Positions 167 through 32,436 of a stretch of DNA of 36,973 nucleotides are shown piece after piece (the stretch's first letter is position 1; the number at the start of each line of letters is the position of its first letter). The DNA comes from a virus. The notes under the pieces were generated by a model. It worked only from the letters and a program-made list of their open reading frames with translations. It did no database searches and was not told where the DNA came from. Made by a program: the position numbers and the translations under genes. The stretch lies in IMG/VR virus record IMGVR_UViG_3300021957_005875, positions 1 to 36,973 of that record; one strand, written 5' to 3'.

Positions 167-2014
167 TTAAAAATTTGATCTGTACAAATCATTATACCAT
201 TCAGGTACTACAGGCTCATCGACGGTTGACCATACGTCACCGTTATTATCAATTTGCTTGTCGATCATTTCATCATAAGGTAAAAAGCCAATTGGCATGA
301 CTTCTTCTTCTAGTTCTCCAAGTTTTTGTTTATACATATGCTGTTTAGCATTTGTGTCTGTTAACTCTTTCCAATATTCGGTACCAGCTGCCCATGCAAA
401 TAATACTAAACACATTACCAAGTCATCGTTGCAACCAGGCTCTGCTTCGAACGAACCTGTGTTGCCTTCACTTTTTCTAACAAACGTTGTAAGTTCAACG
501 TATATATCGTAGTCTTCAATAATAAGTTTGTCAGCTTCTATTAAAGACTTTAAATTTGAACACCCATTGTTTTTTACTGAGTGTGAAGTTGTAACTCCTA
601 ATTTTGATCCAGGACCTGAACCTAATTGAAAACCAGCTCTACCTTTAGATACAGTAGATAAAATATTCTCATACTCAAATTCTTGTTGTACGCCAACAGC
701 AACTTGTTGTCCTACGTCATTAACTTCAACTAAAACCCAAGCGTTGTTATAATATTTACCTATGTTAACAATAAAGTTTGGATAAATCATAGGAGATATT
801 TCATTAGATCTAAACTTAGCTACAACCTTATATGGAACTGCACTTATATCTACAACTACAAAAGCACTATAATCTAATCTAACACCTCTAGCAGAATCAA
901 CACACATTATATAGTTATGACCAGGTTTTGAATCTTCATAGAAGTCAACATGTTCTTGACTTTTTATTGGATTCATATAAGTCAATGCACTTAACTTTGT
1001 TGGTGCTATGAGAGTATTTGATGAACCAATAAACTGACATTCAAATTCTTGTCTGAATTGATCTTCAGATGTGTTAGATATTTGTTCTTGTTTCCAATCT
1101 TCATCTCTTCCTGGAACATCCCACCAATTTATTTCAATAGGTTTAAATTTAGATCTTTTCTCAGTAGATTCCATCCACATTTTATAAAAATGATTCATAC
1201 CTTTTGGTGTTGATACAACTATCATTTTTGTATCTGAACCAGAGGAAATAGTTGGATAAACTGAACGAAAGAAATCTTCAGCATCATTAGGTGGAACGAA
1301 AGCAAATTCATCTAAAAATAACAATGAAAATGACATACCTCGGGCTGCTGATCCAGACGATGCTGTTGCAATTACTTTTGATCCATTTTCAAGTTCTATT
1401 GATCTTTTATTATATGTTATACAACCCTGTTGTAACCAAAAAGGCAACGACTCATATGCTGTTGCTAATCTTCCTAACATTTCTTGAGCTAGCTCACCTT
1501 TGTTAGCTAGTATACCTACAACCTTACCAGGATTAAAAAGTAAGTACCATAGAATGTAAGCTACAGAAGTAGTTGATTTACCACTCTGTCTTGGTAGTTT
1601 ACAAATAGTAAATCTATTGTCATTAAAAGTACTTATCATATTTCTTTGAAATTGATACATAGTAAAAGGAATCAAACCAAAGTCAACAGACATAATTCTT
1701 ATATATGTTTCAGTAAAATAAATTGGATCTTGACTACACTTTTGAAATTCTTTTAATTGATCAGGTGTATAATCTACAGAAACGAATGCTGCTTTTACGT
1801 TTGGATTTCCCATGTAATGAGAAACACCAGTAGAGTTTTTTTCAAACAAATCACTATGAGTTTGTTCAGTAGGAGCATCGTGATAATGTCTTTGTTTTGA
1901 AATATGTTCAATTAATGTTTTTTTATTTTTAACATATACGTCTCCAAACTTTTTAAACCCTTTGTGGAAATCTGGATTATATATATCTTTTTTTATTAAA
2001 TTATCAATTGTCAC
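167..2014 (-). CDS. 17: terminase large subunit (gp17-like)
   Basis: This is the DNA-packaging motor ATPase and nuclease of T4-type phages. The 615 residues compare with about 610 in T4. The ATPase half shows a Walker A PRQSGKST (141-148), Walker B LLFLDE (231-236) with the catalytic Glu, and a coupling motif STPKG (269-273). The nuclease half shows the RNase H-like acidic residues in CVDSARG (Asp373), Asp381, and a late NDD near the C-terminus. It overlaps the end of the small-terminase gene by 11 bases, the normal 16-17 order. It contains no Asp-Ser-Asp/Glu tripeptide, unlike the virion genes. Identification is secure from motifs, length and neighbour. Confidence 0.95.
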   Translation of the reverse strand: MTIDNLIKKDIYNPDFHKGFKKFGDVYVKNKKTLIEHISKQRHYHDAPTEQTHSDLFEKNSTGVSHYMGNPNVKAAFVSVDYTPDQLKEFQKCSQDPIYFTETYIRIMSVDFGLIPFTMYQFQRNMISTFNDNRFTICKLPRQSGKSTTSVAYILWYLLFNPGKVVGILANKGELAQEMLGRLATAYESLPFWLQQGCITYNKRSIELENGSKVIATASSGSAARGMSFSLLFLDEFAFVPPNDAEDFFRSVYPTISSGSDTKMIVVSTPKGMNHFYKMWMESTEKRSKFKPIEINWWDVPGRDEDWKQEQISNTSEDQFRQEFECQFIGSSNTLIAPTKLSALTYMNPIKSQEHVDFYEDSKPGHNYIMCVDSARGVRLDYSAFVVVDISAVPYKVVAKFRSNEISPMIYPNFIVNIGKYYNNAWVLVEVNDVGQQVAVGVQQEFEYENILSTVSKGRAGFQLGSGPGSKLGVTTSHSVKNNGCSNLKSLIEADKLIIEDYDIYVELTTFVRKSEGNTGSFEAEPGCNDDLVMCLVLFAWAAGTEYWKELTDTNAKQHMYKQKLGELEEEVMPIGFLPYDEMIDKQIDNNGDVWSTVDEPVVPEWYNDLYRSNF

Positions 2015-2372
2015 GATTAAGAAGTTCTAACAAATCTTTAGTGTTCATTTTAACATTAAGATTATTATTTGTAATACTTTTGTTTTCGCCCGATGGATTT
2101 TGTAACTTTTCAGTTTTCAAATGGTGATCCATCATTTTTGCAGCATTATCTCCTAATGCTTTTGCGGCTTCGGTAGCAACTTCTATTGCCCTAGGATGTT
2201 CAGACTCTTGTGCTAAATTTACTGCTGCATCTAAAATATCTTGTAATCTTTCTGTAGATGTATACAATATTTCTCTAGCATAGGTATAGTCGTCATTCCT
2301 ATTTGTTATAATCTTTTCTAGATTATTTTTTTCAATTTTTAAATTTTTTTGTAATTCTTTTTCTTTTTCCAT
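2004..2372 (-). CDS. 16: terminase small subunit (gp16-like)
   Basis: This 122-residue, highly charged helical protein lies directly upstream of gp17. T4 gp16, which recognises DNA and stimulates gp17, has about 164 residues, so this one is short. Residues 1-25 are Lys/Glu-rich and probably coiled coil. The central segment HPRAIEVATEAAKALGDNAA resembles the oligomerisation core of gp16 proteins. The ATG at 2372 lies seven bases from an exact TATAAATA box (2387-2380), and no Shine-Dalgarno sequence is visible. It is the first minus-strand gene after the divergent junction with the plus-strand gene at 2410. The call rests mainly on position plus the core motif. Confidence 0.8.
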   Translation of the reverse strand: MEKEKELQKNLKIEKNNLEKIITNRNDDYTYAREILYTSTERLQDILDAAVNLAQESEHPRAIEVATEAAKALGDNAAKMMDHHLKTEKLQNPSGENKSITNNNLNVKMNTKDLLELLNRDN

Positions 2373-2409
2373 AACATATTATTTATAACGGTTATAACAT
2401 AAATATATT
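2373..2409. promoter_or_regulatory. divergent late promoter pair with inverted repeat
   Basis: The 37-base gap between gp16 (minus) and the plus-strand gene holds TATAAATA on the minus strand (2387-2380) and CATAAATA on the plus strand (2398-2405). The first box is seven bases from its start codon and the second is four. A 7-bp inverted repeat, TTATAAC/GTTATAA with a one-base centre at 2390, spans 2383-2397 and joins the two boxes. No purine-rich ribosome site fits on either side. The boxes match the known T4-type late consensus; an operator role for the repeat is inference. Confidence 0.5.
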
Positions 2410-2913
2410 ATGCTTAAACATCTTGAATACAAAATTAATAAAAAAAAATATAGAGATTTGTTCTATAATAATATTCAAAAATATGGTCAATGGCATTGGT
2501 TATGTCCAAAGAGACAAGAATTATTCTGGTATCAGTTATTCATCTCAGATAAACATGAACTAAAAAAAGATTTATTTGAGCTTGAAAATGAACTAGGTAT
2601 TTATGGTATGAATAATTATCCAAGGTTTAGCTATCAGTTTCCAAATACAAAACTAGGACATCATAAAGATGAAGATAATATGGTATCAATAAATATTAAT
2701 CTTCTAGACACAACACCAATTATACACCTTGAACACAAACCTTTTCCTTATGAAATAATACTTGTAGACGTTGGAAATATACTACATGGTGTTGAGCCTG
2801 ATAATAATCCTAGACTAATTCTTAAATTTTGCTTAAGACACCCTTATGAAGAGGTGTATGAAAGACTGGACAAGTTCGGACTATTTAGTACAGAGTCTGA
2901 TTTTATCATTTAA
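2410..2913 (+). CDS. small HxD...H oxygenase-like protein, divergent paralogue, only plus-strand gene
   Basis: The 167-residue protein is homologous to the three small oxygenase-like proteins on the opposite strand. It shares the N-terminal HLEYKINKKKYRDL block, a core with His-x-Asp (HKD, about 85-87), a Val-Ser-Ile-Asn-Ile strand, a distal His126 in NILHGVEP, Arg135 in PRLILKF, and the tail YEEVYERL. HxD...H plus a following Arg is the Fe(II)/2-oxoglutarate binding set of the double-stranded beta-helix dioxygenases. It is the most diverged copy and is inverted relative to everything else here. Its 3' end overlaps the next minus-strand gene tail-to-tail by 33 bases. The substrate is unknown; a peptidyl Asp/Asn or small-molecule hydroxylase is plausible. 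Confidence 0.65.
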   Translation: MLKHLEYKINKKKYRDLFYNNIQKYGQWHWLCPKRQELFWYQLFISDKHELKKDLFELENELGIYGMNNYPRFSYQFPNTKLGHHKDEDNMVSININLLDTTPIIHLEHKPFPYEIILVDVGNILHGVEPDNNPRLILKFCLRHPYEEVYERLDKFGLFSTESDFII

Positions 2914-3363
2914 CATCTCTCTAACTTTGTCATAGCTTGTGTCCAGAAAAGAAAACTTAAGTAAAAGTCTTTCTTCTGAATACTTTGGAACAGCGTGGTT
3001 CAAGCTTGTATTAAATAACGCGCACTCATAGTGTATTTCACCGTAATCTTCGAATATAACAGGAGCATAGTCGTCTGATAAGACGATGTTAACTGAACAT
3101 TCTGTAGCAGGATCAACATGCATATGTACACTTGTGTTTGCGTATTGTTTATAAGCTACTATGATACTGCCGGGTAATTGTTTATGCAGGTCTTCGATAT
3201 GAGGATACATAACGATGTTTTCTTTTAGTCGTGCTTTTAGCCATGTTTTTCGAAAATAATATTGTTCTGGTGCAAATGGCTGAAAATCAAGTTCACTGAC
3301 TTCGTCTTTAAGTTCTTCTTTATCATATTGTAAATTTAAGTGTGTTACGTATAATTTCTGCAT
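2881..3363 (-). CDS. small 2OG-Fe(II) oxygenase-like protein, tandem copy 1
   Basis: This 160-residue member of a local paralogous family starts with the THLNLQYDKEEL block. It carries HVD at 82-84 (His-x-Asp, iron), distal His123 in SLNHAVPKYSEE and Arg132 in ERLLLKFSFLD (2-oxoglutarate carboxylate). These match the iron and cosubstrate ligands of the Asp/Asn beta-hydroxylase branch of Fe(II)/2-oxoglutarate oxygenases. It overlaps the upstream mini-kinase gene by 19 bases, implying coupled translation, and overlaps the plus-strand paralogue at its 3' end. The family fold is inferred from motif order. The substrate cannot be read from sequence. Confidence 0.65.
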   Translation of the reverse strand: MQKLYVTHLNLQYDKEELKDEVSELDFQPFAPEQYYFRKTWLKARLKENIVMYPHIEDLHKQLPGSIIVAYKQYANTSVHMHVDPATECSVNIVLSDDYAPVIFEDYGEIHYECALFNTSLNHAVPKYSEERLLLKFSFLDTSYDKVREMLNDKIRLCTK

Positions 3364-3779
3364 CTAAAAAAGTCTACTATGTAAAAATAATTTCTATTGA
3401 GATATCGATAAACATTACTTTTATGATAAAATCCTATCTGGTCTAAATCAATTATCTTAAGTTGTTTATCAGGAGTTACTATCAAGTTAAGTGAATGTAT
3501 GTCCTCGGCAAATAAAAATAAATCTTTGTCCTTGATCCGAGTCAAGGTGTTCATAAAATCCATACATTTCGACAGCACCCACATCATGTCTTCTACTGAT
3601 TTCATATCGGTTTCTTTCAATGGTATTCCTTCAACGTACTCATATATTATTTTTTTGTCGTTGTACTCCACTATCTTAGGAACCATTGGGTGATTTAGCG
3701 TTAAGAGACTATTAATTGGTAATTGATGCTCTTTTGGATACGCTGATCTGTTATCTTTAAATATTTTTTCATGTAACAT
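3345..3779 (-). CDS. mini kinase-like protein
   Basis: This 144-residue protein has the core of the protein-kinase/aminoglycoside-phosphotransferase fold. A hinge-like strand IIYEYVEGIPL (44-54) is followed by a catalytic-loop-like EDIHSLNLIV with Asp93 and Asn98, and a metal-binding IIDLDQIGF with Asp111, the DFG equivalent. The N-lobe is very short, with no glycine-rich loop and no obvious ATP-binding Lys, so it is either a minimal kinase or inactive. It sits between two oxygenase paralogues, overlapping both (11 and 19 bases), so it probably works in the same pathway. A small-molecule, sugar or protein substrate is possible. Fold confidence is moderate; activity is uncertain. Confidence 0.5.
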   Translation of the reverse strand: MLHEKIFKDNRSAYPKEHQLPINSLLTLNHPMVPKIVEYNDKKIIYEYVEGIPLKETDMKSVEDMMWVLSKCMDFMNTLTRIKDKDLFLFAEDIHSLNLIVTPDKQLKIIDLDQIGFYHKSNVYRYLNRNYFYIVDFFRCRNYT

Positions 3780-4284
3780 TTATAATGCTCGCAGGTAGTC
3801 TGTTGTAGCACTCTTCATAAGTCTTATCAAATATACTGAGTTTTAACAGTAGTCTTTCTTCTGAGTGTTTCTTTACAGAGTGTCTCTTACTTACGTTGAT
3901 AAGAGCGCATTCATACTGAATGTCACCGATATCCTCAAACGTTATTGGTCCAAAATTATCTGAAAGTAAGATGTTGATACATGTTTGAGTTCCATTGTCG
4001 CTGTGCATAGGAACTTCAGTGTTTGCATGTTGTTTCAAGTATCTTGGATCGATATTAACATTAAACAAACTCTCAAAATATTGTGTTAATTTTTTGATGT
4101 CACCAAAAGGTTTCTTCATGTGGCCAAACTCCCAAGACGGAAAGTTCTCAAAAGGTGTGCCTTTTGCTTTTTTACTTTTAATCCTAAGAGGATTAAAATC
4201 TATAAGTTCTGACTCTAAAATTAGTTTATCGACGTTATAGTCAATTTTTAAGTGTGTCAGGTAATCTTTCGATACATTCTTCAT
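3769..4284 (-). CDS. small 2OG-Fe(II) oxygenase-like protein, tandem copy 2
   Basis: The 171 residues are clearly homologous to copies 1 and 3. They include THLKIDYNVDKL near the N-terminus, HSD at 94-96, then INILLSDNFGPITFEDIGDI, His135 in KRHSVKKHSEE and Arg144 in ERLLLKLSIFD. These are the expected Fe(II) triad and 2-oxoglutarate Arg. The tail DKTYEECYNRLP matches copy 3 almost residue for residue, which supports recent tandem duplication. The reading frame overlaps the upstream copy by 44 bases, long for this genome, so the ATG at 4284 is tentative. No other in-frame Met precedes the conserved block. Confidence 0.65.
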   Translation of the reverse strand: MKNVSKDYLTHLKIDYNVDKLILESELIDFNPLRIKSKKAKGTPFENFPSWEFGHMKKPFGDIKKLTQYFESLFNVNIDPRYLKQHANTEVPMHSDNGTQTCINILLSDNFGPITFEDIGDIQYECALINVSKRHSVKKHSEERLLLKLSIFDKTYEECYNRLPASIINVT

Positions 4285-4735
4285 ATGTCTTATCCAAAAT
4301 ACTAAGATTAAATAACCATCTCTCTGTCTTACTTGATTTAACCTTGTGTTTCTTTTTTATGTTAAGTAGTGCACAATCGTAATATACGTCGCCAATATCT
4401 TCAAACGTTATGGGTGAATTATTTTCTGATAGTAGAATATTAATTGAACACATTGGTCTTCCATCAGTATGAAACGGTATTTCACAACCCGGCATCTGTT
4501 TAAAAAATTGTGTCCTAATTTTTGTTTCAAATAGTTTTCGAAAGTAAGTTGATATCCTATTGACCTCTTCAATATGATCTATGTCTCTGCAAATTTGCCA
4601 GCCAGGTGCATGTATAAAAAAAGGATTCTGTGCTTTTTTCACATTATTTAGTTTAAAGTCTACGTAATCCACTGTGTCAAGATCTTTTATTAATCTTTCT
4701 TTATCATATTTAAAATTAAGGTGAGTGAAATGCAT
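4241..4735 (-). CDS. small 2OG-Fe(II) oxygenase-like protein, tandem copy 3
   Basis: The 164 residues begin MHFTHLNFKYDKERL, so the conserved block sits right at the start and fixes the ATG. HTD at 89-91 supplies the His-x-Asp, His130 the distal iron ligand and Arg139 the cosubstrate contact. SINILLSENNSPITFEDIGD is near-identical to copy 2. The protein overlaps the TauD-like gene by 20 bases upstream and copy 2 downstream. Together with copies 1 and 2, the plus-strand copy and the longer hydroxylase at 5880, it forms one related set. Non-redundant substrates are likely because the middle segments (30-75) are not conserved. Confidence 0.65.
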   Translation of the reverse strand: MHFTHLNFKYDKERLIKDLDTVDYVDFKLNNVKKAQNPFFIHAPGWQICRDIDHIEEVNRISTYFRKLFETKIRTQFFKQMPGCEIPFHTDGRPMCSINILLSENNSPITFEDIGDVYYDCALLNIKKKHKVKSSKTERWLFNLSILDKTYEECIERLPDTLKN

Positions 4736-5426
4736 ATCTCATCAATCTTCTCTTAACGTGTGAAGGTGTGTGATCACGCTTGTGACTGACTGTCATATTA
4801 TTCCAAATAACTAGATCACCTGCTTCCCAATTATGAACATGTATATTATTTTTGTCCTCAAAGATATTATTTAACTCATCAAAATATTCAGTACCAGCAT
4901 ACGCTGGACTAAAAAATATATATTCACCAAATTTATCATTACGATATATTGATTGTTTAGTTTTCGATTTCATTAGAAAAGCTCTTTTGTATACTGGTGA
5001 TCTAAAATCATGAGGATACGCGGATCTGTCAAAATAGTTTCTTACAGAAAATTCAACAGGACCTTCTTCAATAACTTTTGTTTTAAGTGATTCATCAAGT
5101 TGAGACCATGCTCTTATACTGTTGCAAAAATACGTAGGACTAGATCCTTGTTCAGCTTCCTTACAATACAAACCAACGAAAGGATGTATATCACTTAAAT
5201 ACGCTCTATCATTATGCCACATCATATCTTCTTCTTGCCATACATGATCTTCACTCTTATCATCAGTACCAATTGGAACTTCTTTTTTTCCATATAGATC
5301 TTGACTTTCAAGTGTACCTACTTTGTGTATTGTATCAATATCAGCTTTCTTTACTATAAGAATCTGAATATTACCATCATAAAAATCTTCTAAATCGTTT
5401 AAATTATCTACTGTTTTTGTAAACAT
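4716..5426 (-). CDS. TauD/TfdA-type 2-oxoglutarate dioxygenase
   Basis: This 236-residue protein fits the TauD/TfdA family, somewhat shorter than the usual 270-300. The iron-binding His-x-Asp is in MMWHNDRAYL (His71, Asp73). A cosubstrate-binding strand and cap, GLYCKEAEQGSSPTYFCN, follows. The C-terminal GDLVIWNNMTVSHKRD gives the distal His215, and the KRRLMRY segment supplies the conserved Arg. Members hydroxylate or cleave small molecules such as taurine, carnitine precursors or amino acids, and some act on natural-product intermediates. It is a different oxygenase branch from its tandem neighbours. It overlaps genes on both sides by about 20 bases. Family is confident, substrate unknown. 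Confidence 0.85.
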   Translation of the reverse strand: MFTKTVDNLNDLEDFYDGNIQILIVKKADIDTIHKVGTLESQDLYGKKEVPIGTDDKSEDHVWQEEDMMWHNDRAYLSDIHPFVGLYCKEAEQGSSPTYFCNSIRAWSQLDESLKTKVIEEGPVEFSVRNYFDRSAYPHDFRSPVYKRAFLMKSKTKQSIYRNDKFGEYIFFSPAYAGTEYFDELNNIFEDKNNIHVHNWEAGDLVIWNNMTVSHKRDHTPSHVKRRLMRYAFHSP

Positions 5427-5908
5427 AACTCACCTATCCACCCTACATATTGAAAATCGTTTTGCGTTACTTGGTATTTATTGTCATCTGTTAAAAAATT
5501 TATTGCTTTACACATTCGTCTTACAATGTGAGGTGTTTTATCTTCTCGAGAAAAAAATAAATTATTTTGGCCTATTGCTTTACAATATTTTATTTGACTC
5601 TTTAACATACTTTCTGTTGAAGGTCTAATAAATTTTCTATCTTTATATTGAGAAATACTTATACCATCATCATAATAAAATCTAGATAATACTCTTAACA
5701 TTCCATTGAAAATAGGCCTATCATGTATAAAACTTATAGATACAGGACGCTCATAATACAATCCTATTGTACATGCTATATCATCTTTTATTTTAAAATA
5801 ATTATTAGATAATTTATTTTTTTTATTACTAATAGCTTTATGAGTTAAATATTTTATTTCAAAATTTAATGACTTACTATCAGTTGTTATAAACTTCCAA
5901 CCATTCAC
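5408..5908 (-). CDS. unrecognised protein, possibly GNAT-like
   Basis: The protein has 166 residues and no motif I can name with certainty. The middle, IGLYYERPVSISFIHDRPIFN followed by MLRVLSRFYYDD, is a beta-beta-alpha pattern reminiscent of small phage GNAT-like acetyltransferases. The later QIKYCKAIGQNNLFFSRED would fit a helix and strand after the acetyl-CoA site, but the canonical R/QxxGxG/A loop is not evident. It sits between two oxygenase genes with overlaps of 29 and 19 bases, so it is translated with them. Treat it as a conserved-looking hypothetical protein. Confidence 0.55.
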   Translation of the reverse strand: MNGWKFITTDSKSLNFEIKYLTHKAISNKKNKLSNNYFKIKDDIACTIGLYYERPVSISFIHDRPIFNGMLRVLSRFYYDDGISISQYKDRKFIRPSTESMLKSQIKYCKAIGQNNLFFSREDKTPHIVRRMCKAINFLTDDNKYQVTQNDFQYVGWIGELCLQKQ

Positions 5909-6590
5909 AATTAAGAGTCTCCTGTGAGTCTATTACTATCATTAAATGTATTCTAGGATATTTTCCTTCATTTTTTACCCAATGATTTTTACCTGAATTG
6001 ATAAACCAAACATATCCGTCAGCAGGTACATGTACATCATTCATTGTAGCTTTTATGTTTGTATTAATAGCTATATGGTATCTTGTAGAAAAAGTAGTAT
6101 CATAATCCCTATGAGGCGCTATACCTCCGCCAGGTTCAGTAATTGTAATGGCTACTCTAGTAACTTTATTTCCAAAACTTTCAATTACTTCTTTTAAATA
6201 TAAAGGTAAATTTGTTTTTAGTTTACTATAAGCCCTTTCATCAAATCTTTTATCATTTTTCATAAAACCTTTATCGTATCTTTTGCCTGAATTTCTATCT
6301 AAAGGTATTTTATAATCAGGATCAAAATCAGTTAAAGCTATTTGTTTATAAGGTATATTTTTCCAATCAAAATTTTTATCTATATCTGAATTTGTCTTAC
6401 CATCATACGCAGCAGGTGTTAAATTATAACCATATGCATCTCTTAAACTTTTATAAGGACCTTCTTCCATACTATCTTCGTTATAAAGACTAAGGTAGTT
6501 TATTATATCTTTTGTTAACCTATCAATATCATATTTTAAATTAAGTTTAATTAACGAAGGCAGGTCTTTTCTTGATTTCCATTTTATCAT
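5880..6590 (-). CDS. aspartyl/asparaginyl beta-hydroxylase-like 2OG oxygenase
   Basis: The 236 residues include a C-terminal jelly-roll with GGGIAPHRDYD (His160, Asp162), a Tyr-His-Ile-Ala-Ile strand, a Gly-x-x-Trp-Phe-Ile-Asn turn, distal His203 in GKNHWVKNEG and Arg213 in PRIHLMIVID. This order is that of the Asp/Asn beta-hydroxylase family, which hydroxylates Asp or Asn side chains in proteins. The N-terminus IKLNLKYDIDRLTKDI matches the opening block of the smaller tandem proteins, so it is probably the fuller-length relative of that set. It is the first gene after a 30-base AT-rich gap (6591-6620). That gap holds TATAAT-like sequence and is the only break among the oxygenase genes. Confidence 0.75.
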   Translation of the reverse strand: MIKWKSRKDLPSLIKLNLKYDIDRLTKDIINYLSLYNEDSMEEGPYKSLRDAYGYNLTPAAYDGKTNSDIDKNFDWKNIPYKQIALTDFDPDYKIPLDRNSGKRYDKGFMKNDKRFDERAYSKLKTNLPLYLKEVIESFGNKVTRVAITITEPGGGIAPHRDYDTTFSTRYHIAINTNIKATMNDVHVPADGYVWFINSGKNHWVKNEGKYPRIHLMIVIDSQETLNCEWLEVYNN

Positions 6591-6620
6591 AATATTATTA
6601 TAGTAAATTTATTATTTTTT

Positions 6621-7181
6621 TTATTGCCAACTATAATGAACTAGTTTTACTTCACCGTCTTGAAAAAACTCGCCTTTAAACGCTCGCTGTACCCACCATT
6701 CTGGGACTGTTCTGACCTCGAGATTTTCTCTAGCTGTGTCTTCGACAAAGTACTGTTCCCCGTTAACTGGTCCAACTGTAGTCTGATTTTCAATATATTT
6801 AGTTGTATAATATTCAGGTTTTTCTCTGAATCTGTTGACAATGTATTTACATTCTTTAGGGTAGTATTTATAGAAACCTCCATTAATTTTGTATTGTTCT
6901 TTGTGTGTATCTTTCCACCAACTAGGAATACTTAAAAACTCTCCTCTTTCAATTGGATAGTTAAACAATTCCATATAGTTATTAAACAAACCAATGTCAA
7001 CATCTATTACACATATAGGTTCGTCAACATCTAAATCCATAAATCTTAATTTGTTCCATTGTAAAATAAATGGATTCACAGATTTGTTAATAAATGTTAT
7101 ACCAGGAATTTTTTCTTTTAAATATTCTTCATATTCAATTCCATATTTGTTACCTATTCGAACAGCATATACTTTGACCAT
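6621..7181 (-). CDS. small GT-A-type glycosyltransferase
   Basis: The 186-residue protein opens with a nucleotide-binding-like beta strand (MVKVYAVRIGNKYG). It has the sequence NKLRFMDLDVDEPICVIDVDIGLF, in which DVD is the metal/nucleotide-sugar DxD motif of GT-A enzymes. It ends with VKLVHYSWQ, a typical closing strand with a metal-ligand His. The enzyme is short compared with ordinary bacterial glycosyltransferases of 250 residues or more. It overlaps the next glycosyltransferase gene by 28 bases. The acceptor is unknown; lipopolysaccharide-type glycans, DNA or virion proteins are all possible for phage enzymes. Confidence 0.7.
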   Translation of the reverse strand: MVKVYAVRIGNKYGIEYEEYLKEKIPGITFINKSVNPFILQWNKLRFMDLDVDEPICVIDVDIGLFNNYMELFNYPIERGEFLSIPSWWKDTHKEQYKINGGFYKYYPKECKYIVNRFREKPEYYTTKYIENQTTVGPVNGEQYFVEDTARENLEVRTVPEWWVQRAFKGEFFQDGEVKLVHYSWQ

Positions 7182-7708
7182 GGTCCTTGCTCCCTCATTT
7201 TGTCGTATGCTTGATTAAAAATAGTAACACCCCAATTGTCATTAAACCCTTGCCAATTATAAGAAGTGCACACCGGCTCATATGTTGTATAACTCATGTC
7301 TAATTCATAAATGTATTGATCAATACCTTTGTATTTCATCATATAGTAATCTGGATTTGAGTTGAAAATATTATAATAAAAAGAATAATCTCCTTCCCAC
7401 GACATAACTGAGGAATTTAATGGTGTGTGATACTTTTCTCTCCACCACGCTTTTAATAACGTAAATTGTTTTCTTTGTAAGTATTCAACATTTTTTGTTA
7501 AGCACACGTCTAAATCAAAATAAAGATAAGGACCTTTCTTAAAGTCTCTAAACAATTGAAGTTTGTTCCACACACCATCATATTGTTCTTCAGTAATTAT
7601 ATGAACATTATCATACTTTGTACCAGTTCTATCTAACATATAAATTATATTATCAGTATAAATTTGAGGATACTTGTCTCCTGTATTAACTAATAATATA
7701 TCAACCAT
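7154..7708 (-). CDS. small GT-A-type glycosyltransferase
   Basis: This 184-residue protein has the same fold signature as its neighbour: an N-terminal strand DILLVNTGDKYP, then WNKLQLFRDFKKGPYLYFDLDVCL with a DLD metal motif. LNSSVMSWEGD closely parallels VNSSVVMWEGD in the third glycosyltransferase at 8718. That segment is the acceptor/donor pocket in this type of phage enzyme. Its ATG lies inside the stop region of the methyltransferase gene (8-base overlap), so the two are translated together. The substrate is unknown. The relation to the 8718 protein is strong by eye over the middle 100 residues. Confidence 0.75.
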   Translation of the reverse strand: MVDILLVNTGDKYPQIYTDNIIYMLDRTGTKYDNVHIITEEQYDGVWNKLQLFRDFKKGPYLYFDLDVCLTKNVEYLQRKQFTLLKAWWREKYHTPLNSSVMSWEGDYSFYYNIFNSNPDYYMMKYKGIDQYIYELDMSYTTYEPVCTSYNWQGFNDNWGVTIFNQAYDKMREQGPWSKYMLFE

Positions 7709-8345
7709 TCCATTTACCCATTACCATAAATCTATTCCAGAATTCTTTTTTACCATTAACTATAGTTTTCATAGTTTTATTTCCACCCCATATTTCAGAA
7801 ATATCATTTTGAATAATTAACTGTTGACAATTTTCTACACAATTAACATGATCAGTCTCATTAGTTTTATTATTAGATTGAAGTACTAATAATGTTCTTT
7901 CTGGTATTTTATAATAATCTTGCATTAATAACATATCAGGCATATGCTCACATGATGTATTAATAACCATATGAGTTCTTCTGATCTCTTTATAATCAAA
8001 ATAATTTATATTGAAAATTTTTATATTTTTTAAATTAAAAAGTTCAGTATATTTCCAAGCAAACAATGTCGCGCTTTTGTCAATATCAAATAAATTTATT
8101 TCTTTAATAGAATTTTTATATTTTTTTAATAACATTTCAATAAGAGGAAACCCAAACCAACCTCCTATAATTTCAATCTTAAATTGATTATTTTCATCTA
8201 GGGGTATCTTAACATTATCTAAACTATCTACTAACCATTGTTTACATAATATTTGATTAGGCGATAATGAATCCATCCATCTATTCATTTTTTCCGGATG
8301 ATTGTATCTAACCCATTTCATCATTTCAGAATATTCAATCTGCAT
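7701..8345 (-). CDS. class I SAM-dependent methyltransferase-like protein
   Basis: This 214-residue protein shows a Rossmann-type SAM site. FKIEIIGGWFGFPLIEML is the glycine loop, INLFDIDKSATLFAWKYTE contains the acidic residue expected to hold the SAM ribose, and IFNINYFDYKEI is the next strand. VINTSCEHMPDM then stands at the motif IV position. The N-terminus resembles phage proteins with an aromatic-rich lead segment. It sits between glycosyltransferases with 8- and 11-base overlaps, suggesting methylation of a sugar or of the glycosylated product. The small gene at 8335 is a shortened relative. Confidence 0.65.
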   Translation of the reverse strand: MQIEYSEMMKWVRYNHPEKMNRWMDSLSPNQILCKQWLVDSLDNVKIPLDENNQFKIEIIGGWFGFPLIEMLLKKYKNSIKEINLFDIDKSATLFAWKYTELFNLKNIKIFNINYFDYKEIRRTHMVINTSCEHMPDMLLMQDYYKIPERTLLVLQSNNKTNETDHVNCVENCQQLIIQNDISEIWGGNKTMKTIVNGKKEFWNRFMVMGKWNG

Positions 8346-8751
8346 TGTTTCCCTTTACAACAAACCACTTATCTATATTATAGCTGAAATCAACATTTGT
8401 TATATTATTTTGTTCAATTAATATATCTACATTATCAATTGGGTTGCAATCACCATTGTGTTGATCGTTGTCACCAATTATAATTAAATCACCTTTATAA
8501 ACTTTACCTATAGGATAATGCTTTTCAGCATTAAAGTCAACGACTAATTCATTAAATTTAACTTTATCAAAAATAACATCTTTTGGATTTTCAAATTTAG
8601 GATCATAATCTATAATATCAACATGTATACCCAAACCTGATAACTTGTATACAAGTTCACTTCTTTCGTTGCAAGCAACTAAAGTAATAGATTCGTAACC
8701 ATTGTTAATGATTGAATCTAATAATAACTTTTCCAGATCTCTTCTGCCCAT
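8335..8751 (-). CDS. shortened paralogue of the neighbouring methyltransferase-like protein
   Basis: The protein has 138 residues. Its second half aligns with the methyltransferase encoded next to it: ELVVDFNAEKHYPIG parallels MVINTSCEHMPDM, IIIGDNDQHNGDCNPIDNV parallels VLQSNNKTNETDHVNCVENC, and both end with an aromatic strand (WFVVKGN and RFMVMGKW). The first half keeps a strand-turn ITLVACNERSEL where the SAM loop should be, but without the GxG pattern, so it may not bind SAM. It could be a partner subunit. It overlaps its neighbours by 11 and 34 bases, which argues for a functioning gene rather than debris. Confidence 0.6.
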   Translation of the reverse strand: MGRRDLEKLLLDSIINNGYESITLVACNERSELVYKLSGLGIHVDIIDYDPKFENPKDVIFDKVKFNELVVDFNAEKHYPIGKVYKGDLIIIGDNDQHNGDCNPIDNVDILIEQNNITNVDFSYNIDKWFVVKGNNAD

Positions 8752-9443
8752 CCTTGTACCTCATCTAACTCAAATGCTTGTTCAGTAATACCTTTATTAT
8801 ACAAAATATGTGAAGTATTGAATATACTTATTTTGCCTTTTCTTTTAAAATATTCTTTGTTATAGTTACTAACTATACCTTCGTCCCAATAATCTAGTAA
8901 ACCTTTTCTATGAGCTTGGTAAAATAAAAATTTGTCTAAAGATTTGTATGTAAAGAAAGCTTCCTTTTCTTTGTCTACAAGTAAGTCATACAAGTACCTA
9001 CCATTATCACCTTCCCACATTACAACGGAGGAATTGACGTGACAAGACACCCCTTTACCGTACCATTTCTCTGAACGCTCTTTATAATCATTCCAGTAGT
9101 TCCATATAAATTTAGGTCTAGGTAACTCTTGTTCAATTAGTTCATCTATATTATCATGTATTAATATATCTAAATCTAACCAACAATTTCTACCTTCTAC
9201 GAACTTGTTGAATAAGACGAGTTTTTCTCGAGTAAAGATTTGATTTTTTGGATAATGAAAAGGATCAAAGCTGGTATAATCGATAATATTGATATTGCTA
9301 TCAATATCGTGAACGTTGTCAGTAATAACATTAAGTATAAAATTGTGACTACAGTTATTCCGTAAACTTCCATAAAGTCTATTGACGTATTCTGGGCCAT
9401 ATTTAGCTCCCCATTTAAATGTGAAAAAGTTTATTGTGGCCAT
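8718..9443 (-). CDS. GT-A-type glycosyltransferase
   Basis: At 241 residues this is the largest of the three glycosyltransferases. It starts MATINFFTFKWGAKYGPEYV, a nucleotide-binding start common in this phage family. FTREKLVLFNKF precedes NCWLDLDILIHDNI, where DLD is the DxD metal motif. VNSSVVMWEGD and LDKFLFYQAH complete the family signature. A C-terminal His is present in NTSHILYNKG. The full set of conserved positions suggests this is the active prototype and the two shorter ones are derivatives. Its start overlaps the end of the radical SAM gene at 9431 by 13 bases. Confidence 0.8.
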   Translation of the reverse strand: MATINFFTFKWGAKYGPEYVNRLYGSLRNNCSHNFILNVITDNVHDIDSNINIIDYTSFDPFHYPKNQIFTREKLVLFNKFVEGRNCWLDLDILIHDNIDELIEQELPRPKFIWNYWNDYKERSEKWYGKGVSCHVNSSVVMWEGDNGRYLYDLLVDKEKEAFFTYKSLDKFLFYQAHRKGLLDYWDEGIVSNYNKEYFKRKGKISIFNTSHILYNKGITEQAFELDEVQGWAEEIWKSYY

Positions 9444-10498
9444 AATTTATGACCTGTACCTATTTTACGTTTAGGTATTTTACTATCAGCAGAAGATACA
9501 CATGTTTTAGTCGAACATATTTTAGGCTTGTCAAATAATTTAAAACCTTTATGAATATAACCTAAAGGTTCATCTCTACAACTATAACTACGTTTTACAC
9601 TACCATCTGGTTCTCTAATTATTATTGATCTATAACCTGAAGAACATTCCCATCCTTCAAATTTGTTAAAATTAAAAGCATTAAATCTTTCAGCTTGATC
9701 CATCCACCATATTTTATTTTTCGAGTCTCTCATTTCAACTTGAAAAATTTGTTTACCCTCAACTTTTTGAGGCATTCCATTATGTAATATGTCTAACATC
9801 TCGTCAGTATAACCATCAACAACAAAAGAAGCTGTTGGATCTGATTGAGGTTTAAGAGTTACATTAATATTCTTTTCTGCAAAGAAGTTAGCGTCTTCTA
9901 AACATTGCCAAAATGTATCAACTAACATCACTTGATTAATAGTAATTTTAGTTCCATTGTCTTGTAAGTAAACTAACTTATCTCTAAACTCTTCTAACTT
10001 GGCTTGTGTGTTAACTGACTCTCTATGACAAGAAGCTGTAATTGAAGCTCTGTTAAATTTCTTAGCTATATTTAAATACTTATCCCACCAAGGTCCTTTC
10101 CTTGATAAGTTAGTTGTCATATGTATAGAAGTATAATTGCAATTATTAGAGTCATCAGCAAGATGCTCGAGTATTTCCAAATACCCTGGATGAAAAGTAG
10201 GTTCACCGCCACTAAGTGAAAAATGAAATGAATTAAACCCATTGTCCCTCGCTTGTCTTTTTATTTCGTCTATGGTCATTAAACACAGTTCAGTATCTCT
10301 ATGATCTTTTTTACTTGATCTAGCATAAGGCCAACAATAAGAACAATTGTAGTTACAAAACCTACCTAATAACCAAGACACTGTAAACAAATCTCTAGTT
10401 ACCATAGTATGCTGACCAACCATTTCTATGTCTTCAAATGGTATATCGTTGAAATTATATTTGCTTTTATTCAATTCCATGTGGATGTGGTTTTCCAT
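9431..10498 (-). CDS. radical SAM protein with C-terminal Cys cluster
   Basis: This 355-residue protein has the 4Fe-4S/SAM motif CNYNCSYC (Cys48, 52, 55) and a GGEPTFHPG strand for the SAM amino group. A C-terminal region has at least four Cys, including YSCRDEP and ICSTKTC. The C-terminal cluster is SPASM/twitch-like, the arrangement that holds auxiliary iron-sulfur clusters in peptide-modifying radical SAM enzymes. It is the most canonical of the seven radical SAM proteins here and is separated from the other six by the broken thioesterase and the coiled-coil gene. The ATG at 10498 lies 32 bases inside the thioesterase reading frame; a second in-frame ATG at 10480 is also possible. Confidence 0.85.
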   Translation of the reverse strand: MENHIHMELNKSKYNFNDIPFEDIEMVGQHTMVTRDLFTVSWLLGRFCNYNCSYCWPYARSSKKDHRDTELCLMTIDEIKRQARDNGFNSFHFSLSGGEPTFHPGYLEILEHLADDSNNCNYTSIHMTTNLSRKGPWWDKYLNIAKKFNRASITASCHRESVNTQAKLEEFRDKLVYLQDNGTKITINQVMLVDTFWQCLEDANFFAEKNINVTLKPQSDPTASFVVDGYTDEMLDILHNGMPQKVEGKQIFQVEMRDSKNKIWWMDQAERFNAFNFNKFEGWECSSGYRSIIIREPDGSVKRSYSCRDEPLGYIHKGFKLFDKPKICSTKTCVSSADSKIPKRKIGTGHKLWPQ

Positions 10499-10819
10499 CT
10501 TTTATATTAACAAACACTATATCGTCTACTTCAGTAATAATTTTTTTAGTTTTAATATTTCTTACAGTAGCTTTAATTGTTATACTAGTTTTTCCTAATT
10601 TTATTGTATCCATTCCTATTTCAATTATATCACCATGCTCAGCGCCAGCTATAAAATCTATTTTTCCTATAGTTCTCGTAACAACATTTCTACTATCAAG
10701 TTGACAACTACATAGATATATGCTTCTTCGTCAATCCAATCAAGTACTCTTCCTCCAAATAATACACCTATAGCATTTAAATCTTTAGGAGCTATCATTT
10801 TTCTAGTTCTATATATCAT
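10467..10819 (-). pseudogene. acyl-CoA thioesterase, hotdog fold, broken by one-base frameshift
   Basis: Translating the 310-base gap recovers a hotdog thioesterase in two frames. Frame one starts at the ATG at 10819 (an in-frame ATG precedes it at 10822, with GGAG at 10829-10826) and reads APKDLNAIGVLFGGRVLDW then IDEEAYIY. At about 10709-10715 the frame shifts by one base and continues CQLDSRNVVTRTIGKIDF, GDIIEIGMD, LGKTSITIKATVRN and DDIVFVN, ending at TAA 10467. The span is 353 bases, one short of 118 codons, consistent with loss of a single base. DLN...GG and the VT...GD pattern are family hallmarks. It is either a real inactivating deletion or a sequencing/assembly error. Family members hydrolyse acyl-CoA thioesters. 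Confidence 0.85.
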
Positions 10820-11564
10820 CATTATCTCCAAAGTATTGGGTGAATAATTTATCTCCTAATATTTTTTGTAACTCTGAATATTTTATTCTTTCGTTTTGTA
10901 AGTTATTTCTTTCTTTTTCCAATTGTGAAATTATAGTATTACTAATTTGATCTTTTTTTAATATTTGATTTTTATATTTTTCTATTTGTATATTCGTTTT
11001 TTCTAATATTTGATTTCTATTAAATTTGTTGTAGAAATCAAAAGTAACTCTTTTTGTAAATTTGTCTGTATAACTTAATACTGATTTTATTTCCTTAACA
11101 TATTTTAGCGAAGAGTAAGGCAAATACCAAAATTTACCTTTATCATCTATTAGAATATTTTCCAAATAATTGTAGTAGCTTCCTGTTTCAACGTTGTTTA
11201 TTATACAACCATCTTTTAAATTTTTTGTTGAATATTTTATAAAACTATTAGGAACTTCATAAGTCATGAAACGATAATAATTTATTAAATTTTTTTTTGT
11301 TATTAAAATATTATTTTTTAAAACAGTTTTTAAACTTGTTGATTTTTTTATTAAATTCATTCCTATAACTAAGTTATATTCATTTCTTTCCCAAACTGTA
11401 ATATTAGGAATAAAATTTATACTTCTACTTAATTGAAATACATGTTTTTTAAAAAAATCAAACTCTTCAATTGCAGAATTATTTTTAGCTTTTAAAAATT
11501 TGTAAACTGTATTTTCTTTGTCGTCTATTTTAATATTTTTAAAATTAGTATTCTTTAATTCCAT
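10809..11564 (-). CDS. unrecognised protein with coiled-coil C-terminus, possible degenerate kinase-like domain
   Basis: The protein has 251 residues and is very Lys/Asn/Ile-rich. Residues 1-170 have a weak kinase-like rhythm. TVYKFLKAKNNSAIEEFDFF could be a Lys-strand and Glu-helix, VIGMNLIKKSTSLKTVL a hinge, and YLENILIDDKGKFWYL a catalytic-loop Asn and following hairpin, similar in layout to the mini-kinase at 3345. However, the DFG-type Asp is replaced (WYLPYSS). Residues 185-235 are a heptad-like coiled coil rich in Lys, Glu, Gln and Ile. The stop overlaps the thioesterase start (ATGATATATAG) and the start overlaps the radical SAM gene by 10 bases. No function is assigned. A pseudokinase-type scaffold is the best guess, at low certainty. 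Confidence 0.5.
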   Translation of the reverse strand: MELKNTNFKNIKIDDKENTVYKFLKAKNNSAIEEFDFFKKHVFQLSRSINFIPNITVWERNEYNLVIGMNLIKKSTSLKTVLKNNILITKKNLINYYRFMTYEVPNSFIKYSTKNLKDGCIINNVETGSYYNYLENILIDDKGKFWYLPYSSLKYVKEIKSVLSYTDKFTKRVTFDFYNKFNRNQILEKTNIQIEKYKNQILKKDQISNTIISQLEKERNNLQNERIKYSELQKILGDKLFTQYFGDNDDI

Positions 11565-12577
11565 TGAGCTAAAAAAGGATCAAATTTGTTGTTACATTTA
11601 ACTGCACATACTTTTAATTTATCCTTTCCTTTCCAACTATCTTTAATTTTTTTTAAAAAACCACTTTCCATCACTTCTTTAATTGAGCTATCAAGAGCAT
11701 TAATGTTATAACCATTTAAATATTCCCATATTTCTGAAGCTTTAGGATCTAAATACCACTTGTACATTTGACCAGCAGTCCAACAACAAGGTAAAACTAA
11801 ACCTTCAGCTGATATGTAAATTTCTTTTTTTTGAACACATTTAGGTACTACGTCAAAAAATTCAAGAGATTTGTTAATATCAATATCTCTTTCTAGTTCT
11901 TTATTTCTATATTTTAACTGTTTAGGTTTACTTAAAAGCGTTCCTAGACCTTCTCTAAAAACTGCTTGATGTTGTTCTTTTTTTTCTAAATTAGAAGTAA
12001 GATATCTACCTGATTTTTTTACTATAAATTTATTAATACCCAATAACTTAGAATATCTTTCTGCTTCTTCCACCTGATGTTCATTGTAATTAAAAACTAA
12101 AAAAGTCCAATCTCCTTTACCTCCTGCGCTAGTAAAAGCATCTATGTTCTCTTCAACGTTTTTCCAAACAACGCCTTGTCTATACAAATGATTTGTATTT
12201 TCTAAACCATCTACAGAAAAATTTACATGTACATTCAACTTAGCTAAATCAGACCACCACTCTGGTTTTCTAGCCCCACCATTTGTTGTTATTCCTAAAT
12301 TTAAATTTTTATTATTACTTCTAAAATATTCAAACATTTCTAAACATTGAGGTGCAAAAATAGGATCGCCGTGATTTCCACACATGTATATATTATCAAG
12401 TTGATTTAAAAATTTATTATCGAAAAGGTGTTTAACATTATCTAGTGTCAATGACTTATTTTTAAGATAAGGATTAACATTGCCTCCATTCATGTTTCTA
12501 TCACACATAGGACATGATGCTTGACAAAGCTGTGTTGACTCTAAATGAACTTGTTTAATTTGATTATAATTATACAC
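11555..12577 (-). CDS. radical SAM protein, C-terminal SPASM-like type
   Basis: The 340 residues carry the SAM-cluster motif CQASCPMC (Cys18, 22, 25). The usual GGE strand is replaced by CGNHGDPIFAP. The C-terminal region EIYISAEGLVLPCCWTAGQ plus CAVKC supplies at least five Cys for an auxiliary cluster. Layout and the GD variant match the protein at 13856, so the two form one subfamily. The start codon is GTG at 12577, fused to the previous stop as TAGTG, giving tight translational coupling. Family enzymes use 5'-deoxyadenosyl radical chemistry, and SPASM members commonly modify peptides. The substrate is unknown. Confidence 0.8.
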   Translation of the reverse strand: MYNYNQIKQVHLESTQLCQASCPMCDRNMNGGNVNPYLKNKSLTLDNVKHLFDNKFLNQLDNIYMCGNHGDPIFAPQCLEMFEYFRSNNKNLNLGITTNGGARKPEWWSDLAKLNVHVNFSVDGLENTNHLYRQGVVWKNVEENIDAFTSAGGKGDWTFLVFNYNEHQVEEAERYSKLLGINKFIVKKSGRYLTSNLEKKEQHQAVFREGLGTLLSKPKQLKYRNKELERDIDINKSLEFFDVVPKCVQKKEIYISAEGLVLPCCWTAGQMYKWYLDPKASEIWEYLNGYNINALDSSIKEVMESGFLKKIKDSWKGKDKLKVCAVKCNNKFDPFLAQWN

Positions 12578-13863
12578 TATATATATTCTAAATATTTTTT
12601 ATCTAGTAAAGTTATATCTTGATTTCTAATTTTATCAAATAACAAAGTCGTATCTCTAAATTGTATTCGAAATTCATTAATTTCATCCTCATCAATATAC
12701 ACTTTTAACATATTTGTTATAGGAGTTATAAACATTAATTTTTCTTTTTCTGACATATTCCACTTTTTAAAACTTTGCTCTAAAACTTCTAAAATAAAAA
12801 GTTTATGGTCGTCATGTAAAATAGCTATACTTAAATTTTTCTGGGATACAATTGAAAATAAAAATCTATCAATTTTTTTTGCTCTATATAAAGATATGCA
12901 CCAATCAATTATTTGATCTATATTAAAAATATTCCACATTTGTATAACCATTGTTATACTCATTGAAACTTTTGTATTTAAATTATTAAGTCTAAGATCA
13001 ATTAATTTTTCAAATCCTTCTAAAGTTTTATTCCATTTACCAGGAAATCTAATATACTCATAAACATCTCCAATACCATCTAAACTATTTGTAAAATGTA
13101 TACGTTTTACTTTTAATTGTTTAAAAATTTTTATAACTTTGTCTGTTATTTTCGTAGCATTAGTTGTAATTATTATATTAGTATTTTTATTATTTTTTAA
13201 TTTATCTAACATATGAAATACTTCTTCCATAATTAATGGCTCGCCACCTAATAATTTTAAATAAATTATATGCTCTAATGGTATAATATTATATAACTGA
13301 TCTTTAGACTTTCTTTTATCAAATATATGTACATCTTGTGCTGTTAATTTTACTTTATTCTTAAATTGTTCTTTTATATTACTATCTAGGTTTTTTATTT
13401 CTTCAGCAAATAAAGATGAGTTAGCAGGTCCACACATTCTACATTTTAAATTACATAAATTTGAAGGTCTATAATCTAACCAAAATATTTTATCATGAGT
13501 AGTTCCTTTATCAATATCATATTCAAATGAACCATATATTTCTTCAATATCTTTAGCTATTTCAAAATAATTATTTCTGGAATTTTGACCATTTTCTTCT
13601 TTAAATTTACATAAATGACAAATAGAATGAAATTCACCTTTCATAAGAGTAGATCTTATTTCTTTAGCAAAATTGTTATTGAAAATATCTTTTTTAAAAT
13701 CTTTAACATCTTCATGTTTAAATGTTTTTCTTGCTTGTATTTCTTGGAAATTGTTAGACTCACAACAAGGTTTATATGAACCGTCAAATGTATTATTTTT
13801 ACTTGGATTACCTCTCCAAAACATTCCTAAAAATGGAGCTGCACATAAAGGTTTCTTATTCAT
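12577..13863 (-). CDS. radical SAM protein, N-terminal twitch-like type
   Basis: The 428 residues have an unusual order, with a Cys-rich domain before the radical SAM core. Cys7 in LCAAPF, Cys33-Cys34 in YKPCCESN and CHLC (82-85) precede CNLKCRMC (137, 141, 144), followed by LLGGEPLIMEE. The pattern CxxPF...PCC...CxxC looks like an auxiliary-cluster (twitch/SPASM-like) domain moved to the N-terminus. Three further genes upstream share it (15015, 16393, 17616). It is the most AT-biased and Lys/Ile/Asn-rich of the group. It overlaps both neighbours (1 and 8 bases). Confidence 0.8.
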   Translation of the reverse strand: MNKKPLCAAPFLGMFWRGNPSKNNTFDGSYKPCCESNNFQEIQARKTFKHEDVKDFKKDIFNNNFAKEIRSTLMKGEFHSICHLCKFKEENGQNSRNNYFEIAKDIEEIYGSFEYDIDKGTTHDKIFWLDYRPSNLCNLKCRMCGPANSSLFAEEIKNLDSNIKEQFKNKVKLTAQDVHIFDKRKSKDQLYNIIPLEHIIYLKLLGGEPLIMEEVFHMLDKLKNNKNTNIIITTNATKITDKVIKIFKQLKVKRIHFTNSLDGIGDVYEYIRFPGKWNKTLEGFEKLIDLRLNNLNTKVSMSITMVIQMWNIFNIDQIIDWCISLYRAKKIDRFLFSIVSQKNLSIAILHDDHKLFILEVLEQSFKKWNMSEKEKLMFITPITNMLKVYIDEDEINEFRIQFRDTTLLFDKIRNQDITLLDKKYLEYI

Positions 13864-15034
13864 TAATTTGTAATCCTCTAGTTACTTTATATTCAGTTTG
13901 AATTTCTCCACAAAATTTAGGACATGTAGTTACTCTTGGATTGTTTTTAGAAAATGTTGTATTTTTTAAACTATCAGGTAATGCGTCTGTAAAAAATTCA
14001 TGAGTTAAAATATCATATATGTTATTTTTTTTCAAAGAATTGAATTCAAATCCATATTTTTTTAAGTACCAATTGTATCCATTTTTTCTTTCCATTTTCA
14101 TTCTTGATCTATAAAAATTAGGACCTTTATTATAATCTGTAAAATCAGGCTGCCTATGATACATTGAACTAAAGAAACAACATCTACTAATTCTACCATC
14201 GTAATCTATATTAAATTTATTCTGAAGTCCCCATCTACATGTTACATCTGAAAAATTGTCGTATTCTCTTTGTGAATTAAATTTTAATTTATTAGCATAT
14301 GATAAAATTTCTTCTTTGTTAGCTTCATCATATTCTACTCCTTCGTTGTTCAAATCTTTTTTTCTTTCTAAAGGTTTTCTATCTTTGTATTCATTTTTAA
14401 CTTCACCTTTATAATTTGTATGCTGTATAATTCTATTATTTTTTAAAGTAAATTTAAATCCTAATTCGGAAGCTATTTTTTTTGCTTGTTCTATTTGATG
14501 AATATTGTGTTGAAATTCTATCATAGCCCAAGTAGTATGCCCTCCTGCTTCTTTAAAAGCTTTGGCATTTTCTAAAACTTTATTAAAATTTACTCCTCTT
14601 CTATATCTCTGATGAGTCTCATCGTCTATTCCATCAAAAGCAAATCTAACTTTTACGTCATACTTAGCTAATTTTTTCCACCAACTTGTATTATGTAAAC
14701 CACCATTTGTTTCTATAAAAAAATTTTTTATATTTTTAGATTTTTTTAAAGCATAGTCGATAAATTCTAAAGCTTTTGGATGTAACATAAAGTCTCCATA
14801 AGCTCCTGTTAAAGATAAAGTATTCAATTTATCAGTTATTCTTTGATCGTCAAATATACTTTTCCACATATCTTCAGTCATGTTACCTTTATTGCCTATT
14901 TTAATATTTGGATTTACAATGTCTGATTTTGAAACAAATCTACTGCAACCTTGACAAGTACTGTTACAATTAGATGTTAGTTCTATTTGTAATCGTAATT
15001 TGTCTTTTATTTTATTATCCATTGTATTTGGCAT
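13856..15034 (-). CDS. radical SAM protein, C-terminal SPASM-like type
   Basis: The 392 residues have CNSTCQGC (Cys23, 27, 30), a TGAYGDFMLHP strand in place of GGE, and FNIDYDGRISRCCFFSS plus CPKFC at the C-terminus. A substrate-contact segment VRFAFDGIDDETHQRYRRG is close to VNFSVDGLENTNHLYRQG in the 11555 protein, so these two are paralogues. The ATG at 15034 is preceded by AAGGA about nine bases upstream and lies inside the end of the previous gene (20-base overlap). A second ATG four codons on is less well placed. It is probably a peptide-modifying enzyme or part of a multi-enzyme chain with its neighbours. Confidence 0.8.
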   Translation of the reverse strand: MPNTMDNKIKDKLRLQIELTSNCNSTCQGCSRFVSKSDIVNPNIKIGNKGNMTEDMWKSIFDDQRITDKLNTLSLTGAYGDFMLHPKALEFIDYALKKSKNIKNFFIETNGGLHNTSWWKKLAKYDVKVRFAFDGIDDETHQRYRRGVNFNKVLENAKAFKEAGGHTTWAMIEFQHNIHQIEQAKKIASELGFKFTLKNNRIIQHTNYKGEVKNEYKDRKPLERKKDLNNEGVEYDEANKEEILSYANKLKFNSQREYDNFSDVTCRWGLQNKFNIDYDGRISRCCFFSSMYHRQPDFTDYNKGPNFYRSRMKMERKNGYNWYLKKYGFEFNSLKKNNIYDILTHEFFTDALPDSLKNTTFSKNNPRVTTCPKFCGEIQTEYKVTRGLQINE

Positions 15035-19055: not shown

Positions 19056-19554
19056 CAGTTTCCATAAAATTAGAAGACTTTCTCAACGAAGCTTTTAATT
19101 CTCTGTTAGTTGAATTTTTAACTTTTTCTATTTCAAATGATTGTAATTTAAGCTTAAAAAGAATATCATCAGAAATGTTAGTAATGTCAAACATAGACTT
19201 TTCTTGATTGTCATGGTTGACCTGTGTAGGTATTTTACTTGACAACTCATTAAAAATCTCTTTTTTTATTCTAGTTTCAAATTCTTTATTTTGTTCTTCA
19301 ATTAACTCATTAGTTTTTAATGTATTTTGTTCTACACTTTCTAAAGAAATTTGTTCTAAAAATTCAGTAAAGTAATCAGAAGGTTCTACTCTTATAGTTC
19401 TAATAAATGTATTTTCTTTAGGATGTTCTTTACCTGACCAATCTTTAACTACAAATTGTTCTTTAACTCTAACATTAATTGTAGTTTTATCTTGATCTAT
19501 AAAAATTGCTGAGTCTGGTTCGTAAATTGTTTTAGTTGAAATAATGTTTTCCAT
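19021..19554 (-). CDS. unrecognised protein at head of the radical SAM operon
   Basis: The 177 residues match nothing I recognise. An N-terminal half with beta strands (TTINVRVKEQFVVKDWSG) is followed by a Glu/Lys-rich helical segment (about 85-120) and a C-terminal helix ending in a short hydrophobic stretch (VAYTVAIILDK). AGGA lies ten bases before the ATG at 19554, and a 19-base gap separates it from the fibre-like gene. Its stop region contains the TTG start of the first radical SAM gene. It could be a small virion or chaperone protein ending the structural module, or a partner/substrate of the radical SAM enzymes. Sequence alone does not decide. Confidence 0.6.
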   Translation of the reverse strand: MENIISTKTIYEPDSAIFIDQDKTTINVRVKEQFVVKDWSGKEHPKENTFIRTIRVEPSDYFTEFLEQISLESVEQNTLKTNELIEEQNKEFETRIKKEIFNELSSKIPTQVNHDNQEKSMFDITNISDDILFKLKLQSFEIEKVKNSTNRELKASLRKSSNFMETVAYTVAIILDK

Positions 19555-23292: not shown

Positions 23293-23295
23293 GTT

Positions 23296-32424: not shown

Positions 32425-32428
32425 GTTC

Positions 32429-32436
32429 TATTTATA
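32429..32436 (-). promoter_or_regulatory. T4-type late promoter box
   Basis: An exact TATAAATA on the minus strand sits in the 12-base gap between gp8 and the DUF4815 gene. GAAC separates it from the ATG. In T4, late transcription starts about six bases after the box, which would put the start at or next to the ATG and give a leaderless mRNA. Confidence 0.6.

Follow-up and report, generated by a model that had tools for sequence, protein, structure and literature searches.

Why would a phage carry several diverged oxygenase genes side by side, and how did these genes come together? The question is raised by positions 2410 to 6590 of the 36,973-base IMG/VR virus record IMGVR_UViG_3300021957_005875 (the window, that is, the whole stretch of DNA analyzed here). 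The source of the window is a marine T4-like virus of bacteria. The block consists of eight genes, six of which encode oxygenases; below, proteins and genes are referred to by the lowest coordinate of their open reading frame (ORF). An earlier note on this DNA had named five of these ORFs (5880, 4241, 3769, 2881, and 2410) as members of one oxygenase family, and all five were found where it had placed them. We estimate a probability of about 80% that this region is a mobile cassette with which a marine T4-like phage makes several small Fe(II)/2-oxoglutarate (2OG) oxygenases, of which the four short ones (2410, 2881, 3769, and 4241) form one family.

The short proteins form one family with a predicted oxygenase fold

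The 2881, 3769, and 4241 proteins are mutually homologous over nearly their full length (BLAST E values of 3e-44, 1e-30, and 1e-24; 40, 39, and 31% identity). The 2410 protein is homologous to these short minus-strand proteins as well, as revealed by BLAST (E = 3.8e-9 to 3769) and by hhalign (98.3%, E = 2.5e-14). As had been claimed, a His-x-Asp motif, a distal His, and a following Arg are present in all four short copies, and these residues are invariant in 80 of the 80 members collected from the short and 2410 families. The spacing between them is identical in the four copies of the window: 39 residues from the Asp to the distal His and 9 from the His to the Arg. The corresponding distances in 5880 are 41 and 10. 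The earlier note had also described middle segments that differ while the ligands are kept. The ligands are indeed kept, but the variation is found mainly in the N-terminal half (approximately residues 30 to 65), while the catalytic half is well conserved.

The AlphaFold model of the 3769 protein is confident, with a mean predicted local distance difference test score (pLDDT) of 89.1 and a predicted template modeling score (pTM) of 0.86. When this model was compared to the PDB with Foldseek, 2OG-Fe(II) oxygenases were matched, including 6n1f, PHD2, prolyl-4-hydroxylases, and AspH (probability of 1.00, E of ~1e-5). The best of these matches were prolyl-4-hydroxylases and PHD2/EGLN, to which 3769 is only 10 to 17% identical. 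A comparison to BFVD returned phage and other viral oxygenases. The double-stranded β helix that had been anticipated is thus predicted for 3769 and, by homology, for the other copies. A PDB sequence search with the short-family profile gave no oxygenase match. Membership of the short proteins in the 2OG-Fe(II) oxygenase superfamily is supported by the modeled fold.

Each short protein would bind Fe(II) through His-x-Asp...His and 2OG through the Arg located 9 residues past the distal His, and would insert an oxygen atom into a C-H bond of its substrate (hydroxylation). We infer the metal, the cofactor, and the reaction from the fold and the conserved residues, which were themselves established computationally.

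The short family is distantly linked to Asp_Arg_Hydrox proteins

The 5880 protein is a member of Pfam family PF05118, Asp_Arg_Hydrox (E = 2.4e-9; 37.6 bits at a cutoff of 22.6), which comprises AspH, L-proline cis-4-hydroxylase, and the caprazamycin β-hydroxylase 7v4f (PMC9814697). Its profile matches in the PDB include the 7v4f β-hydroxylase (E = 7e-21) and cis-4-proline hydroxylase (E = 1e-10). The five-protein family proposed earlier therefore holds for its four short members, but 5880 is related to them only at the profile level. BLAST aligned 5880 with the short proteins over a 14-residue opening only, with E values of 0.03 to 0.05 at best, not significant alone. Comparison of the 5880-type and short-family profiles gave 78.6% (E = 1.7e-5), with both metal-ligand regions and the Arg aligned.

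The short proteins have the same fold as PF05118 members, with His-x-Asp, His, and Arg in the same order and at nearly the same distances. However, they are 160 to 171 amino acids long, matched no solved structure in sequence searches, and lie below the family cutoff: the copies of the window have no match to PF05118, and the best short relative, a short domain of locus L003, reaches 20.0 bits (E = 6e-4) as opposed to the required 22.6. By these profile comparisons, the short family would branch off distantly within the Asp/Asn/Pro-hydroxylase superfamily. The two kinds of domain are fused in one ORF in loci L013 to L015, L017, L018, and L020, and in L011 they are encoded by separate overlapping genes. 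A different arrangement was observed in L003:3331-4374, a single ORF with two successive short oxygenase domains, the second of which is far diverged.

The block probably moves between phages as a unit

All eight genes recur in contig IMGVR_UViG_3300020420_000012 (81.6 kb), with order and orientation unchanged. Nucleotide identity, calculated per 150-bp bin, is 58 to 97% over nearly all of the 2410–6590 region and 33 to 47% at and beyond both of its ends. Virion proteins that have matches between the two phages are only ~24 to 29% identical, and the terminase genes of the window, which the oxygenase cassette abuts, have no match within the 80 kb of the second contig that were searched. In that contig, the cassette is located ~45 kb away from the virion genes. 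Since a collinear block is surrounded by unrelated flanks, the cassette probably moves as a unit and was probably transferred in this way between distantly related phages. Identity within the cassette is highest at 4241 (94% at the nucleotide level; the ortholog is 97.6% identical), which suggests a later exchange in the cassette middle.

The genes of the block are listed in Table 1. The TauD/TfdA protein, absent from the list in the earlier note, represents an oxygenase family distinct from the others in the block. The genes for the two remaining proteins are also conserved in the second cassette: the ortholog of the kinase-like ORF is 87% identical and occupies the matching place, and that of ORF 5408, which has no above-cutoff Pfam match, is 73% identical and likewise in the same place. 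The kinase-like protein is smaller than a normal kinase. The 3′ end of the 2410 gene overlaps the 2881 gene by 33 bp.

Table 1. Features of the window, with positions counted from its first base.
Feature	Position	Strand	Length (amino acids)	Residues or basis of assignment
Convergent short oxygenase paralogue	2410..2913	+	167	H85, D87, H126, R135
Short oxygenase copy	2881..3363	-	160	H82, D84, H123, R132
RIO/ABC1-kinase-like ORF	3345..3779	-	144	Pfam RIO1, E = 2.4e-6, above cutoff
Short oxygenase copy	3769..4284	-	171	H94, D96, H135, R144
Short oxygenase copy	4241..4735	-	164	H89, D91, H130, R139
TauD/TfdA-family 2OG-Fe(II) oxygenase	4716..5426	-	236	Pfam PF02668, E = 6e-22
ORF with no assigned family, GTG start	5408..5908	-	166	GNAT-like by eye only
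Asp_Arg_Hydrox-family 2OG-Fe(II) oxygenase	5880..6590	-	236	H160, D162, H203, R213
Oxygenase block	2.4–6.6 kb (2410–6590)			
T4-type large terminase	167–2014			Pfam Terminase_6N
Baseplate, neck, and tail genes	20.5–37 kb			

Likely substrates of the cassette enzymes

The six oxygenases of the cassette probably hydroxylate some molecule. As a rule, enzymes that tolerate fusion work on a common substrate or in a common pathway. The short and Asp_Arg_Hydrox domains occur as fusions in some phages and are transferred together here, so proteins of these two kinds probably have a substrate or pathway in common. By analogy, amino acid side chains of a protein or peptide are the most likely substrate, a first guess based on the nearest fold relatives, which hydroxylate amino acid residues; the target may perhaps be located in tail fibers or at the host surface. 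Lipids, glycans, or small molecules may also serve as substrates. Among 83 neighbors of the family in other phages, the commonest families are TauD (10), radical SAM (7), and fatty acid desaturase (7). The TauD and desaturase enzymes likewise use oxygen, which speaks for the oxygenase reading of the cassette. In the literature, no substrate was found for phage enzymes of this oxygenase sort.

Several points weigh against the reading of the block as a mobile cassette of oxygenases acting on such a target. Modeling of the 2410 protein gave a poor result (pLDDT of 62.6; best PDB match with E of 8e-3) that cannot support a fold claim on its own, so the fold of this protein is assigned by homology. 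The case for mobility comes from a single good comparison between two cassettes, on contigs that are both fragmentary. Last, the targets of 2OG oxygenases in general extend to nucleic acids, lipids, and small molecules.

The proteins could instead have an auxiliary metabolic role, drawing down or sensing 2OG or modifying host metabolites, with no macromolecule as a target. We consider this unlikely, though it is the strongest of the competing explanations. Modulation of 2OG has been proposed for numerous cyanophage oxygenases, whose suggested roles are in 2OG balance or DNA repair (PMC3037559), and the PDB sequence matches of 5880 include the small-molecule hydroxylases cis-4-proline hydroxylase and nucleoside β-hydroxylase. 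However, the many diverged paralogues per phage and the domain fusions fit dedicated substrates better than bulk consumption of 2OG, and the cassette contains no recognizable metabolic pathway genes. A bolder version of the cassette reading, which we regard as doubtful, is that the eight genes make up a self-contained, horizontally moving modification pathway. The paralogous oxygenases, the TauD protein, and the kinase-like protein would then modify one macromolecule of the phage or host in succession, yielding a dense, phage-specific hydroxylation pattern.

The copies are old and evolve under purifying selection

The earlier note attributed the copies to local tandem duplication and one inversion, followed by substrate divergence within this phage. 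The three short genes do lie close together on one strand, and a common ancestor of the three copies was not rejected in the approximately unbiased (AU) test when the ortholog from locus L019 was included (P = 0.43). Yet, when the copies of the window and of its near relative L002 were grouped together on their own, the tree was rejected (P = 1e-5). The 4241 protein shares 60% of its residues with L019:7586-8083, encoded by another phage, but only 40% with its neighbor 3769; overall, the paralogues are as distant as copies in unrelated phages. Nor are the genes simply arranged in tandem, since the kinase-like ORF separates 2881 from 3769, and the TauD gene together with ORF 5408 separates 4241 from 5880. 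Together, the AU results and the identities indicate that duplication is possible but old.

The inversion also finds no support. In the tree, the 2410 gene falls in its own old clade (support of 100/100), and its convergent placement relative to a short gene is conserved in many phages (L025, L023, L026, L030, L034, and L103); in L058, L042, and L100, the two genes are on the same strand. Its phylogenetic position marks the plus-strand gene as an ancient paralogue rather than a product of local inversion. A recent and local origin of the copies is thus improbable, and the sequence comparisons point to old duplications combined with reassortment among phages.

The claim that the copies are not decaying was supported. 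The ratios of nonsynonymous to synonymous substitution rates (dN/dS) relative to the near relative were 0.04 for 4241, 0.05 for 3769, and 0.07 for 5880 by the NG86 method, with dS for 5880 near saturation. The YN00 method gave 0.03 for 4241 and 0.08 for 3769, the two well-measured copies. The estimates were saturated for 2881, 2410, and 5408, and most other genes were saturated or poorly measured. Selection is therefore purifying, and decay is excluded for the measured copies. Purifying selection together with divergent N-terminal halves is compatible with differing substrates but is no proof of them.

The short family is absent from the libraries searched

None of 21 short-family members matched PHROG 61 or any other PHROG (E of 0.01), and none reached a Pfam cutoff. 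The short oxygenases thus belong to a family that goes unrecognized by Pfam and PHROGs. A search of cultured phage records with 3769 gave no match, and a search of 84,980 prokaryote species genomes yielded a single one, on an 8.2-kb contig filed under an Opitutia metagenome-assembled genome. Like viral contigs, this one (L104, NZKY01000164.1) has the oxygenase fusion together with a convergent gene of the 2410 type. It is probably a phage contig that was binned with a bacterium. Since cultured phages gave no match and the sole prokaryote match is virus-like, the short family is apparently viral as far as the searched collections show.

The type of enzyme is already known: 2OG-Fe(II) oxygenases occur widely among marine phages (PMC12774648, PMC11561400), where PHROG 61, structurally akin to human EGLN3 (PMC12774648), belongs to the same superfamily and likewise occurs in many copies. 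The short proteins are a further family of this known sort, with a defined cassette and fusions, and not a new type of system. Mosig, a cultured relative, has three genes of the Asp_Arg_Hydrox type; among its ten coding sequences that were checked, none matches the short family. Marine phages are full of 2OG-Fe(II) oxygenases, and to these the present analysis adds a family that Pfam and PHROGs overlook. Its defined cassette, with specific partners and natural fusions, hints at which enzymes probably work together and narrows the choice of proteins to express and of peptides or glycans to look for.

Other features of the window

In pelagimyophages, an Asp/Asn β-hydroxylase is reported as core, and a host recognition cluster contains tail fibers, glycosyltransferases, and radical SAM cassettes (PMC7029224). 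The layout of the window resembles this hypervariable island with its tail fibers, radical SAM proteins, and glycosyltransferases, but the oxygenase cassette of the window adjoins terminase genes. Seven large radical-SAM-looking ORFs follow one another on the minus strand at 9431-19055. Two of these ORFs were scanned against NCBIfam, and both (9431-10498 and 17616-19055) match a twitch-domain radical SAM family.

The tripeptide DS[DE] is strongly enriched in ten virion genes of the window (20549-36923, minus strand), where it occurs 59 times compared to 5 expected (maximum of 14 in 2000 shuffles), and is absent from the enzyme genes at 167-19554. The sites use mixed Ser codons, and 22 of them are in 33903-36923. 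That the cassette enzymes hydroxylate the Asp (or Ser) of these virion motifs, as the enrichment and the Asp hydroxylases among the nearest relatives of 5880 might suggest, is very improbable and was rejected, since the relative with the collinear cassette (G001) has 11 DS[DE] sites compared to ~13 expected; motif and cassette are apparently unrelated.

DS[DE] may possibly be a modification or recognition motif. It is not enriched in Mosig. Relatives L080 to L083 keep nearly all of the 22 sites of 33903-36923, while flanking residues change. The same four loci encode, on the strand opposite to the virion genes, an ORF of ~290 amino acids (L080:6035-6907, minus strand; the L081 copy, cut by the locus end, has 235). 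This ORF is itself rich in the motif, with 6 to 10 sites compared to ~0.4 expected.

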